Assembly (NCBI GenBank): GCA_903642275.1
Contig: CAHJWK010000029.1
Span: forward strand, 1 to 40,662
Direction of reading: 5' to 3'
DNA length: 40,662 nucleotides
DNA from: Chitinophagaceae bacterium
GTDB taxonomy: Bacteria > Bacteroidota > Bacteroidia > Chitinophagales > Chitinophagaceae
Shown: positions 16,969 through 37,583 of the stretch, piece by piece
Layout of the letters: every line of letters begins with the position of its first letter
How positions within the stretch are numbered: the stretch's first letter is position 1
Notes under the pieces: generated by a model
The model's database searches: none
The model's input: the letters and a program-made list of their open reading frames with translations, nothing else
What the model was told of the DNA's origin: nothing
Position numbers and translations under genes: made by a program

Positions 16969-17697
16969 ATGAAGGTTGATATTCTTGCTTTTGGCGTACA
17001 TCCTGACGATGTGGAACTGGGTTGCTCGGGTACATTAGCAGCAGCTGTTGCCCAGGGTAAAATAGTTGCTGTCGTTGATTTGACAAGAGGTGAATTAGGA
17101 ACACGCGGATCAGCTGAAACAAGAGACATTGAAGCGGCTAATGCAGCAAAAGCAATGGGCGTACATGCAAGAGAAAACCTGCAGATGGCAGATGGATTTT
17201 TTCAGAATGATGAAAACAATGTGCGGAAAGTGATACAAGTTATCAGAAAATATCAGCCTGAAGTTGTATTATGTAACGCACCCGAAGACAGGCATCCGGA
17301 TCATGGCAGAAGTTCAAAGTTGGTTTCGGATGCGGCATTTTTATCAGGCTTAAGAAGAATAGAAACAATTTATAATGATGAACCGCAGCAACACTGTCGG
17401 CCACATTATGTGTTTCATTACATACAGGACCGTTATTTAAAACCTGATTTTTTATTTGATATTTCTGATTATTATGATCAGAAGATTAATGCTGTTTTAT
17501 GTTATACAACGCAGTTTAATACAACAGATACCAGCGAGCCTGAAACTTATATTTCCAATCCTGATTTTCTAGATGTAATTAAAGCAAGAGCATTAATGTT
17601 TGGCAAGCGCATTGGCGTGCAATATGCAGAAGGTTATTTAACCACGAAGATGATCGGGGTGAAGAGTTTTGACGCATTTATTCAAAATGTAACCTGA
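16969..17697 (+). CDS. bshB1: Bacillithiol biosynthesis deacetylase BshB1
   Basis: The 242-residue PIG-L/LmbE-family zinc deacetylase starts with MKVDILAFGVHPDDVELGCS, where His11 and Asp14 are zinc ligands and Asp13 is the catalytic base of the family. The third ligand is in RHPDHGRSS (His112). The region LTRGELGTRGSAETRDIEA is typical of BshB1, which removes the acetyl group from GlcNAc-malate to give GlcN-malate, the substrate of BshC in making the thiol bacillithiol. bshA and bshC are not in the window. The gene is followed by the 21-bp repeat array. Confidence 0.95.
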   Translation: MKVDILAFGVHPDDVELGCSGTLAAAVAQGKIVAVVDLTRGELGTRGSAETRDIEAANAAKAMGVHARENLQMADGFFQNDENNVRKVIQVIRKYQPEVVLCNAPEDRHPDHGRSSKLVSDAAFLSGLRRIETIYNDEPQQHCRPHYVFHYIQDRYLKPDFLFDISDYYDQKINAVLCYTTQFNTTDTSEPETYISNPDFLDVIKARALMFGKRIGVQYAEGYLTTKMIGVKSFDAFIQNVT

Positions 17698-17739: not shown

Positions 17740-18012
17740 CAATGCATGTAAACAAGCCCACAATGCAGTTAGTGAATGTCGCTATGACAGTGGAAATAAC
17801 CACAATGCAGTTCGGCAATGCCCCAATGACGGTTGAAGGCTTCACAATGCGAATAACCTCGTCCACAATGCGGTTAGGTGGGTTCACATTGAGGTTCGAC
17901 ACATATACAATGATGTTGGACTGCTCCACAATGATATTGAACCAGCCCACAATGCGGTTCGGCACATCCACAATGGAGTTCAATGAGTTCACAATGCGAT
18001 CGGGCTAGTGCG
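17740..18012. repeat. Array of 13 head-to-tail 21-bp units, each starting CAATG or a close variant
   Basis: The 273 bp divide into exactly 13 units of 21 bp with no insertion or deletion. Units start at 17740, 17761, 17782, 17803, 17824, 17845, 17866, 17887, 17908, 17929, 17950, 17971 and 17992. The first five bases are CAATG in 11 units (CTATG and CATTG in the other two). Positions 6-12 lean to CGGTTCG or CAGTTCG; position 10 of each unit is T in 12 of 13; the last two bases are usually CA. The rest varies freely. Because 21 is a multiple of three, open frames run through the array on both strands (17742-18008 plus; 17678-17992 minus). The array fills the gap between the convergent bshB1 and tyrS and is visibly richer in G+C than its flanks. 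The units are too short and uninterrupted for CRISPR. Confidence 0.9.
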
Positions 18013-18082
18013 ATATGCCGGTAAATCACCTGAATACCGAATAAATTGCTAAAGGGCTAAGCAAAGTTCGACCTACTACTTT

Positions 18083-19363
18083 TTAAATTGCAACGATCAC
18101 CAAATAATAATTCTTCTTTCCTTTTTGTACGAGCAAGTATTTGTTATGAAGCAATAAAGAAGTGTTAACCGTCATCTGCAAGCCATCAACTTTCTTCCTG
18201 TTAATACTTACGCCGCCGTTTTGAACCATTTTTTTTGCTTCGCCTTTGCTTTGAAAAATATTTGTTTCAGCAAGAAAAGAAGTTATATCAATGCCGGCAT
18301 TAATCTTTAATAAATCAAAATTAATTTTAATAATGCCTTCAAGGTTTTGCAGATCTTCTTCGCTTAAACTTTCTGCAGCTGCATTTTGATTGGCGAATAA
18401 TTTTCCAGTTGTTTCAAGCGCCTGCTGCAAGCCATTTTCATCATGCACAAAAACGGTAATTTGTTTTGCCAGTTCTTTCTGTAATATACGTTTTGAAGCA
18501 TCTGCTTTATGCTGATTAATTAAATTATCAATTGCATCTTTAGATAAAAAAGTAAAAATCTTTATCCATTTTTTTGCATCATCATCAGACGCATTTAACC
18601 AGAACTGGTAAAACTCGTAAGGTGAAGTGCGGTTTGCATCAAGCCAAATATTTCCTTTCTCGGTTTTGCCAAACTTTCCGCCATCAGCTTTTGTAAGTAA
18701 CGGGCAGGTAAATGCAAACGCTTCGCCACCTGCCTTGCGGCGAATTAGTTCTGTGCCCGTTAATATATTTCCCCACTGGTCGCTGCCACCCATCTGCAGT
18801 TTGCAGTTATGATGTTTATAGAGCCAGTAAAAATCATAACCCTGTATTAACTGGTAACTGAATTCAGTAAAGCTTATGCCGCTTTCGCCTTCAATTCTTT
18901 TCTTTACGCTGTCTTTTGCCATCATATAATTTATGGTAATGTGCTTGCCCACATCGCGTATAAAATCAAGAAAAAACATTTCTTTAAACCAGTCATAATT
19001 ATTCACCAGAACGGCTGCGTTTGGCTTTGCTTCATCAAAATCTAAAAACTTTGAAAGTTGTTTTTTTACTGCTGATTGATTGTGCTGTAAAATATCTTCA
19101 CTTAATAAATTACGCTCTTCGCTTTTGCCGCTTGGGTCGCCAACCATACCTGTAGCACCACCAGTTAATGCATAAGGTTTATGACCGGCTTTTTGTAAAT
19201 GCACCAACAATAAAATGGGAACAAGGCTTCCAATGTGTAAGCTGTCAGCAGTAGGATCAAAACCAATGTAAGCAGATGTTTGTTCTTTATTTAACTGCTC
19301 TTCAGTGCCGGGCATTATATCCTGTATCATTCCGCGCCAGCGCAGCTCTTCAATAAAATTCAT
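18083..19363 (-). CDS. tyrS: Tyrosyl-tRNA synthetase
   Basis: The 426-residue class I synthetase has the HIGH-type motif HIGS at residues 43-46, the tyrosine pocket [13 protein letters not shown], the GGSDQWGNI block (192-200) and the KMSKS-type loop KFGKT at 230-234. The C-terminal S4-like RNA-binding domain reads [20 protein letters not shown]. It charges tRNA-Tyr with tyrosine. The length is normal. No T-box or tRNA-like leader is visible upstream, and the nearest minus-strand gene (DUF1328) has its own terminator at 19416-19443. Confidence 0.97.
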
Positions 19364-31688: not shown

Positions 31689-33002
31689 TTGATTTTATCA
31701 AAAAATAATAAAGTGACAATTTTAAAAAAGATTGCCAAACAAAGGTTTTTCTGTGTAGTTGTTTTGTTGTTGTGCATAAAAAAAATCAATGCACAAACAG
31801 ATACTATCGCTGTTTCATTACCGCAGGCAGAACAACGTTTTCTTGATAGTAATTTACAAATACTCGCAGCGCATTATAATGCTGATGCAGCAAAGGCTTT
31901 AATTAACCAGGCGAAGTATTGGGATAACCCGGTTCTGAATACAGACCAAGTTATTGCGGCTAATCATAAAGTATTTCCGTATAAAACTTTGTCTGATGGT
32001 ACTTCCGGCGAACAATATTTTATTCAGGTACAGCAACTGGTTAAAACAGCAGGCAAGCGCGGAAAGCTGATTGCATCTGCGAAAACAAATGCTGAAATTA
32101 ATAACCTGCAATTGCAGGATGTAATCAGAAAATTAAGAAGCCAGCTGCATATAGATTATTACACTATTGCAAGGCAGTTACGGAGCTACAATTTTTTTGT
32201 GCAGGCAAAGCAACAGCTTGATACATTGCTTAACGGCATGCAGTTACAGTTTAATGCAGGCAATATTTCTGAAAAAGATTTATTGCAGATACAATCACTT
32301 TCAGTTTCGTTATTGCAGGATGCAACAGCGTTAAGCAATTCTATCGCAGATGAAGAAGCTGATATGAAAACGCTGCTTCATTATGATACCGGCTTTTTCA
32401 TTAAGCCTGCCGATACACTTTTGCCAAGGTTAACATTACCGGAAAGTCTTAATGTATTTATCAGCCAGGCAATAGAAAACAATCCATATTACAAGATTCA
32501 AAGAGAACTAACCGTTTATCAGCAGCAACAGCTTTCATATCAGAAAGCCTTGCGTTCACCTGATATAACGTTAACGCCGAATTTTGATAAGCAATCTAAT
32601 TATGCACCTGATTATTATGGTGTCGGGTTCTCATTACCGCTGCCTGTATTCAACAGGAATAAAGGCAACATTCAATCAGCGGAATTTAATGTAAAGCAAC
32701 AGCAGGCTTTGGAAAGTAATGCAGACAATGAACTAAAAAATAATGTTGAAAGAGCTTACAGGAAAATCAACTTTTTAATTCAGCAAAACAATGCTGTGGC
32801 AACAAGTTTTTATTCAAAGTATGATACGCTTTATAATAATGTATTGAAGAGTTACCGGCTAAGACAAATAAGCCTGCTGGAGTTTATAAGTTTCTTTAAT
32901 GATTATAGAGACCTGCAGGAAAGAATACTTCAGCAAAACCTCAACCTGTTGCTTGCAACAGACGATTTAAATTACCAGGTAGGTATTGATATAATAAAAT
33001 AA
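31689..33002 (+). CDS. TolC-family outer-membrane efflux channel (CzcC/CusC-like), non-ATG start
   Basis: The 437-residue protein has a signal peptide (FFCVVVLLLCIKKINAQ) and the OEP layout of two half-repeats rich in Gln/Asn coiled helices: SLPQAEQRFLDSNLQILAAHYNADAAKALINQA, then QFNAGNISEKDLLQIQSLSVSLL, and in the second half AIENNPYYKIQRELTVYQQQQL, YGVGFSLPLPVFNRNKGNI and SYRLRQISLLEFISFFNDY. It forms the outer-membrane duct of a tripartite pump. There is no ATG: candidate starts are TTG 31689, with AAAGGA seven bases ahead, or GTG 31713. The adaptor gene follows 10 bp later. Confidence 0.88.
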   Translation: MILSKNNKVTILKKIAKQRFFCVVVLLLCIKKINAQTDTIAVSLPQAEQRFLDSNLQILAAHYNADAAKALINQAKYWDNPVLNTDQVIAANHKVFPYKTLSDGTSGEQYFIQVQQLVKTAGKRGKLIASAKTNAEINNLQLQDVIRKLRSQLHIDYYTIARQLRSYNFFVQAKQQLDTLLNGMQLQFNAGNISEKDLLQIQSLSVSLLQDATALSNSIADEEADMKTLLHYDTGFFIKPADTLLPRLTLPESLNVFISQAIENNPYYKIQRELTVYQQQQLSYQKALRSPDITLTPNFDKQSNYAPDYYGVGFSLPLPVFNRNKGNIQSAEFNVKQQQALESNADNELKNNVERAYRKINFLIQQNNAVATSFYSKYDTLYNNVLKSYRLRQISLLEFISFFNDYRDLQERILQQNLNLLLATDDLNYQVGIDIIK

Positions 33003-37282: not shown

Positions 37283-37583
37283 CATGGCAATGCAGGGTGC
37301 AGGATGCCTGCTCATGGTTCTGACTAATAGTAATGCAATGTGCAGGATACCTACTCACATTTTTGACTAACCATATTGCAGTGTGCAGGATGATTGCTCA
37401 CATTTTTGACTGATGGCAATGCAGTGTGCGGGATGCCTGCTCATATTTTTGATTAACCATATTGCAGTGTGCAGGATGATTGCTCACATTTTTGACTGAT
37501 GGCAATGCAGTGTGCAGGATGCCTACTCATATTTTTGACTAACCATATTGCAGTGTACAGAATGGTTGAACCTCTAAATAGTC
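37283..37583. repeat. 43-bp tandem array (six good units, one decayed) behind czcA
   Basis: Units of exactly 43 bp start at 37283, 37326, 37369, 37412, 37455, 37498 and 37541; the last is degenerate. Units 3 and 5 are identical and units 4 and 6 differ at three positions, so an 86-bp dimer was duplicated recently. Type A units (1, 4, 6) contain GGCAATGCAG and GCAGGATGCCTGC-like palindromes (5-bp stem, 3-nt loop); type B units (3, 5) have CATATTGCAG and GATGATTGCTCAC. Each unit ends with a T5 tract and GACT (unit 1 has a GGTTC variant). 43 is not a multiple of three and stops occur in all frames, so the array is non-coding. It starts 10 bp after the czcA stop. Confidence 0.9.

Follow-up and report, generated by a model that had tools for sequence, protein, structure and literature searches.

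Bacterial tandem repeats of several kinds resemble the array described here. The iterons of plasmid replication origins are direct repeats of about 17-22 bp with a spacing of about two helical turns; they lie beside a replication initiator gene or origin and are read by a Rep protein. The REP and BIME elements of enterobacteria are clustered intergenic palindromic units, many per genome; they are longer and keep no single exact step. The STRR of cyanobacteria are heptanucleotide arrays. Intergenic tandem repeats in bacteria are usually taken as slippage products or mobile debris.

Three reports are close to the present case. The accessible part of the first presents BrickBuilt of Porphyromonas gingivalis as a 23-nt intergenic minisatellite/MITE found in 19 places in one strain, and also mentions repeats of 22 and 41 nt (PMC4596501). 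In the accessible part of the second, TAACTGA heptanucleotide arrays are intergenic, have a fixed unit length and occur in Bacteroidetes as well (PMC4679880). The third, likewise accessible in part, places intergenic tandem repeats of lake Planctomycetota behind deletions (PMC9426551). A literature search of titles and abstract openings returned no description of a genome-constant step with variable units; this is weak evidence, subscription papers and preprints being mostly uncovered.

The 21-bp array of the window

The window (the whole stretch analysed, 40,662 nucleotides from a Chitinophagaceae bacterium) contains an array of abutting units with starts at 17740, 17761 and so on to 17992 (Table 1). 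The sequence-only reading had reported 13 units of 21 bp without an indel over 273 bp, CAATG intact in 11 of them and a T at unit position 10 in 12. The alignment is gap-free and both recounts agree; unit positions 1, 4 and 5 are C, T and G in 13 of 13.

Table 1. Features at and around the arrays of the window
Feature	Position	Strand	Remarks
PIG-L family deacetylase, left neighbour	16969..17697	+	PF02585, E 2.8e-25; stop codon ends 42 bp before array
Opposite-strand open frame, 104 aa	17678..17992	-	judged not a gene; no Pfam match at E 0.1
21-bp array, 13 units	17740..18012	.	consensus about CAATGCGGTTnGn(9)CCA; lag-21 identity 0.52
Array open frame, 88 aa, M-x-hydrophobic heptads	17742..18008	+	judged not a gene; no Pfam match at E 0.1
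Degenerate 14th unit, barely recognisable	18013..18033	.	by eye: ATATGCCGGT...
Tyrosyl-tRNA synthetase, right neighbour, convergent	18083..19363	-	PF00579, E 1.9e-80; ends 70 bp after 13th unit
Second intergenic array, period 43 bp	37284..37575	.	alternating half-units of ~21 and ~22 bp, after AcrB-type transporter gene

Identity within the array is 0.52, 0.59, 0.56 and 0.55 at lags 21, 42, 63 and 84. The remaining lags from 5 to 89 give 0.17-0.31, and lags 20 and 22 (0.26 each) show no side peak. The best 105-bp stretch has 65/105 matches; control peaks, taken over all lags 12-69 in six 20-kb first-order Markov sequences, lie at 49-54. Tandem Repeats Finder returns fragments only (17758-17837 at period 42, 17907-17954 at period 21 and 17971-17991 at period 9). 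The array is confirmed as real.

Arrays of the same class in the genome

Periods were surveyed in 40 stretches plus the window (835,583 bp, chosen without regard to arrays or sequence) at lags 10-74. An array was counted as intergenic unless most of it lay inside an ORF that had 110 aa or more and exceeded 1.6 times the array length. The period was taken as the shortest lag whose identity reached 0.8 of the best value, and period calls depend on this rule. Fifteen of 17 intergenic arrays have a period of 21, 42 or 43 bp (21 in twelve, 42 in two, 43 in one; the others are 6 and 7). The 11 arrays inside ORFs have mixed periods of 7, 9, 13, 15, 24, 27, 39, 42, 48 and, twice, 51 bp. Within the window, a 173-aa ORF at 569-1090 on the minus strand has 15-, 45- and 60-bp periodic repeats and looks by eye like a Lys/Ala/Pro-rich repeat protein.

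Scaled from 15 in 835,583 bp to the full 4,287,644 bp, the genome would hold roughly 77 arrays of the 21 type. The 43-bp array of the window is possibly a variant of the 21-bp class. For the dyad, stop-free and indel tests below, 25 arrays of this genome were used. Eleven (loci L144-L154) were found by the CAATG pattern at 21-bp steps, and the 14 from the sampled stretches and the window are the ones unbiased for period.

A DNA search of the genome finds a second array of the window motif on contig C24, at about 31838-32136, and a pattern search points to a short third one (C24:44729-44775). CAATG at 21-bp steps (three anchors, at most 2 mismatches) gives 147 overlapping matches, while its reversed control gives 28; many of the 147 sit in arrays whose other positions are unrelated. 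The view that length is more constrained than sequence is supported, and extends to a genome-wide class.

The unit sequences belong to several unrelated families: the window array with C24; C5, C33, C41 and C21; C10 and C15; C28 and C46; C30 and C40; C118 and C134. Weaker links join C18 to C34 and C8 to C57. The motif TGAGATGCGATTCTCA (at most 2 mismatches) has 23 copies genome-wide, all of them in four arrays; by hand count, every one of the 19 neighbour distances is a multiple of 21.

The arrays may be ordinary minisatellites or mobile debris of slippage or MITE-like origin, with a step that reflects descent from one 21-bp ancestor. Array families do recur at different loci, and C118 and C134 share, besides the array, 65-75 bp of one flank. 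A precedent is the 23-nt minisatellite inside a MITE in P. gingivalis, as given in the accessible part of that report (PMC4596501). However, when 350-bp flanks of 26 arrays were compared with the sampled sequence of the same genome, C118-C134 was the only pair to share a flank; the other families lack shared flanks in the sequence compared. In addition, slippage does not predict one period for unrelated units, and the ORF arrays of this genome have mixed periods. Such an origin is unlikely.

Arrays in other genomes

The class is patchy among the genomes sampled, since several samples hold no arrays or arrays of other periods. In 220 kb of G026 (same family, other genus) the periods are 21 (three arrays), 42 (two), 22 and 10. 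Five of the seven share the 21-bp step, and the array called 10 (L258:16363) actually has its best lags at 21 and 42. G059, a Prevotella MAG (180 kb), has period 7 in six arrays, 22 in two, and 42, 9 and 15; one of its arrays is called 15 in the census and 22 in another scan. Periods are 7 (three arrays) and 12 in 80 kb of G010, 8 in 60 kb of G009, and 7 in the cyanobacteria G063 and G064 (seven and four arrays, 80 kb each). Samples of G004 and G032 (80 kb each), G067 (60 kb), G060 (40 kb) and G068 (24 kb) have no arrays. A 20-kb sample of G001 has none either; 21-bp arrays are present elsewhere in that genome. For the congeneric G004, the density seen here predicts only about 1.4 arrays in 80 kb, a sample too small to establish absence; CAATG x3 matches (at most 1 mismatch) number 7 in G004 against 58 in G000. 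Arrays from other phyla were picked for CAATG at 21-bp spacing and prove only that similar arrays exist; many overlap ORFs.

Two other repeat types were seen. Arrays of 7 bp (CAATGGT, CAATGAC and others) occur in G059, G061, G065, G063 and G064, that is, in Prevotella/Bacteroidaceae, Mucilaginibacter and cyanobacteria; there too the unit length is constant while the sequence varies. A short dispersed repeat (L226:1785-1860) adjoins a G001 array and has many matches in G001, some in G002, G003, G006 and G007, and one in G000.

G062, the genome of L092 (a Bacteroidaceae MAG from yak cecum), has a step of its own: 160 kb contain fifteen arrays of period 22 and one of period 15. The pattern GGTTAACC N{4,34} GGTTAACC gives 105 pairs per strand, the count being equal on each strand because GGTTAACC is a palindrome, and 0 in the reversed control. 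The step is 22 in all 50 distinct pairs listed. The 14-bp site AAnGGTTAACCnTT (at most 1 mismatch) occurs 444 times, against 10 in the control. Among the sites listed, each of the 30 neighbouring pairs no more than 300 bp apart is spaced by a multiple of 22 (19 x 22, 9 x 44, 2 x 66); the count uses 63 exact sites among those listed on contigs C1, C3 and C4, of which 12 stand alone. Several motif types in G062 have the 22-bp step in common. The sequence-only reading had tied helical phasing to a 21-bp unit in relatives. A unit of 22 bp is found in this more distant genome, but the step is constant there, and phasing survives in modified form.

Viral contigs have 20 GGTTAACC pairs at step 22 and 68 at step 21, so viruses show no 22-bp preference; 3 of 65 viral step-21 loci hold any 21-, 42- or 63-bp array. 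The step-21 pairs of viral stretches L342-L344, L348 and similar ones lie in shared sequence context on short contigs (about 5-8 kb). The window motif has two matches in viral contigs, both inside long ORFs; L407 and L408 are viral stretches with 21-bp coding repeats in long ORFs, where the match arises by chance of codon use. The idea of a mobile-element decoy was rejected on the window array, the one array tried, which has no match in plasmid or phage records.

Constraint on the units

Non-consensus counts per column are uneven, with a variance of 8.0 against 2.7 simulated in the window array and 9.4 against 3.1 in the C24 array. The two arrays have their pattern of conserved and free columns in common (r 0.80; 0.82 by information). 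Each of the three P values is 0.00005, which is the simulation floor. Unit identity is about 0.50-0.60 between the two arrays, depending on offset, and 0.50-0.60 within them; there is no collinearity. Across 21 arrays of this genome, mean unit identity drops from 0.64 between neighbours to 0.54 at distances of more than four units; therefore neighbour duplication plays a part in some arrays, partly through phase slips.

In neutral bacterial DNA, indels arise at roughly a tenth of the substitution rate. Wrap-around alignment of the 25 arrays of this genome gives 1,491 substitutions and 34 indel bases, those substitutions shared by descent being counted more than once. Three G026 arrays give 212 and 17, relatively more gaps, and 48 other arrays 1,500 and 41, with 32 of the 41 in two L105 arrays. 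By eye, the indels in this genome are mostly compensating pairs or terminal. Four to seven interior phase shifts were seen by eye (L174:3303, L236:5855, L251:18043 and L148:2215; less surely L245:3237, L147:2125 and L243:19011).

In 13 of 28 arrays the dyad symmetry of the units is above that of a column-order null (P < 0.05; Fisher 1.4e-11, with arrays of one family not independent). The window array's own dyad is weak (P 0.04), and 15 of the 28 have no dyad at P < 0.05. A column-shuffle covariation test gave mixed results and carries no weight here, as alternating units and phase slips confound it. A dispersed intergenic hairpin stretch with the core GGCGAAGTTTGCAACTTCGCC lies near three arrays of this genome (L149:1953-2029 and 1254-1306, L241:2354-2429, L174:3560-3611).

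The chief rival to a binding-site reading is a fixed-length duplication process. An enzyme or replication process would duplicate or insert a set length (21 bp here, 22 bp in G062), and the step would be its scar, with no function needed. This fits one step across unrelated sequences that is lineage-specific and without spread, some arrays of nearly identical units (such as C134, and L226 in G001) and the drop of identity with distance in several arrays. It does not fit two unlinked, non-collinear arrays that agree in which positions are conserved and which are free; furthermore, the step outlasts heavy substitution, whereas a passive scar should drift. We know of no enzyme that duplicates such a fixed length. 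We consider this process rather unlikely.

Coding potential

The plus and minus frames were correctly described as open: both ORFs were found (Table 1), and the C24 array, like that of the window, has an open frame on both strands. Twenty-one bp are also seven codons, and the array could be a small gene for a protein of seven-residue repeats. A slight excess of stop-free frames is seen in 48 arrays of other loci (113 frames against 88.3 expected, in 45/48 arrays against 41.0), nearly all of which were chosen by the CAATG pattern. The arrays of this genome are at chance under the same null of random column order: 14/25 have stop-free frames against 14.0 expected, with 24 frames against 23.1. 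In G026, two of three arrays do, against 1.2 expected. The test cut the window array with an edge unit and scored stops in every frame, although its 13 core units are open.

At the Thr position of the M-x-hydrophobic frame, 26 codons of the window and C24 arrays were examined; 22 are ACN codons, and all 22 are ACA. This constancy counts against coding because a protein would leave the silent third base free. The sister arrays have a step of 22 bp and therefore no heptads and no kept frame. Together with ORFs that lack a Pfam match, these results led us to reject coding heptads; the protein-level side of the sequence-only reading does not hold up, and a gene here is highly improbable.

Gene context

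The left neighbour of the array is presumably BshB1. The position between convergent genes had been emphasised before; it is true of the window array but incidental. Of the 13 arrays of the class placed in this genome, 3 are in convergent, 4 in divergent and 6 in tandem gaps; the corresponding shares of gap length are 0.22, 0.28 and 0.50. A special link of the class to convergent genes was rejected on these figures. Five of the six arrays in tandem gaps start no more than about 30 bp from where the upstream gene stops (the limits of the arrays are approximate).

Flanking proteins were scanned for at least one neighbour of 24 of the 25 21-bp arrays, many with one neighbour, and for both neighbours of the 43-bp array; L152 was left out. 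The 34 proteins include the PIG-L deacetylase, TyrRS, EF-Ts, methylmalonyl-CoA mutase, lipoyl ligase, TrmD, OsmC and BipA. They have no common family and give no functional hint; 11 of the 34 have no Pfam match. A carboxypeptidase-regulatory-like domain, which adjoins two arrays (L241, L144), is the sole family seen twice.

Among 29 loci of relatives around the deacetylase gene, one (G005, L180) also has TyrRS within the 1.5-kb flank. The array is absent from its deacetylase-TyrRS gap; an intervening gene resembles, by eye, an alpha/beta hydrolase. One G001 array has an upstream gene whose counterpart in G006 lacks a neighbouring array; this is not a clean empty site, since the two flanks are on different G006 contigs. 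Arrays seem to come and go between species. A local slippage product had been the expected verdict if relatives lacked the array and the genome held no other copy. The array is indeed missing from the one congeneric gap that keeps both genes, but with many arrays at other places of the genome, local slippage is not a sufficient explanation.

Physical and RNA tests

Intrinsic curvature of the arrays shows no clear excess (Fisher P 0.06, computed from wedge angles), and they have no 10.5-bp A+T phasing (Fisher P 0.56). The window gap contains three promoter-like matches against 1.4 by chance.

If transcribed, an array could act as RNA, in the form of a row of hairpins or of sites for an RNA-binding protein. 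The dyad symmetry of many units and the start of most tandem-gap arrays near the upstream gene's 3' end, their ends being approximate, are consistent with this. However, G-T mismatches in the dyads are not above A-C mismatches (121 against 149), an Rfam search matched no family, no terminator-like site was found in the window gap, and 4 of the 13 placed arrays lie in divergent gaps. An RNA element is very unlikely.

Interpretation

The tentatively favoured explanation, at a probability just short of even, is that the window array is a DNA element of binding-type sites two helical turns apart and a member of a genome-wide class. Its basis is the phased sites, the genome-constant step, the shared column constraint, the rare phase shifts and the class-wide dyads. 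The DNA-level side of the sequence-only reading is thus the one retained. That differing motifs of one genome keep a single step suggests that the spacing is dictated by contacts between proteins or by the helix itself. Whatever reads the arrays should respond to the step and, within a family, to part of the motif.

We infer the protein, its binding and its function on the arrays. A DNA-binding protein, probably a dimer, would oligomerise along one face of the helix and occupy the units; its occupancy of arrays in the gaps between genes may organise or insulate the chromosome locally. Any effect would extend over the whole genome if the density of the sample is typical, since roughly 77 arrays are then expected.

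Some observations count against the favoured explanation. Firstly, as to helical phasing, one and the same helix cannot complete exactly two turns in 21 bp and also in 22 bp, and the G062 step, without a 1-bp spread, is stricter than phasing needs. Secondly, binding sites are disfavoured by the weak dyad of the window array, the trace of neighbour duplication, the gappier G026 arrays, the lack of curvature and A+T phasing, and the uninformative flanking genes. A mixture is possible, in which arrays are born by a ruler and kept by binding.

Some bacteria may have a genome-wide system of length-ruled intergenic arrays, with one step per genome and dozens to hundreds of arrays of unrelated motifs; this is a possibility that we hold as somewhat doubtful. 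If true, it needs an undescribed trans-acting ruler, either an oligomerising nucleoid protein whose contacts set the step or an enzyme that makes duplications of one set length. A step that stays the same throughout a genome, varies from lineage to lineage and survives changes of sequence indicates selection on spacing or a machine that measures length, and each of the two would be a novelty.

Comparison with known systems

The window array resembles iterons in its direct repeats about two helical turns apart. It differs in that the 34 flanking proteins include no replication initiator (Pfam, E 1e-5; 11 of the 34 without Pfam match), in that the window array has no plasmid or phage match, and in the many loci and motifs per genome. 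A CRISPR array has identical repeats and unique spacers of similar length, whereas the units of the window array abut and vary position by position. Heptamer arrays have a unit of 7 bp; here there is no lag-7 signal (0.21 in the window array, 0.16-0.33 in nine arrays of this genome).

BrickBuilt is also a case of intergenic tandem repeats in a Bacteroidota. As presented in the accessible part of its description, it has one unit sequence with a leader, a tail and terminal inverted repeats, whereas here the units differ and the flanks are mostly unshared (PMC4596501). The likeness to REP and BIME elements, whose palindromic units are bound by nucleoid proteins or gyrase, would lie in intergenic palindromic units that are clustered and numerous in the genome; dyads are seen at P < 0.05 in 13 of the 28 arrays. 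The difference is that here the step is fixed and the sequence varies.
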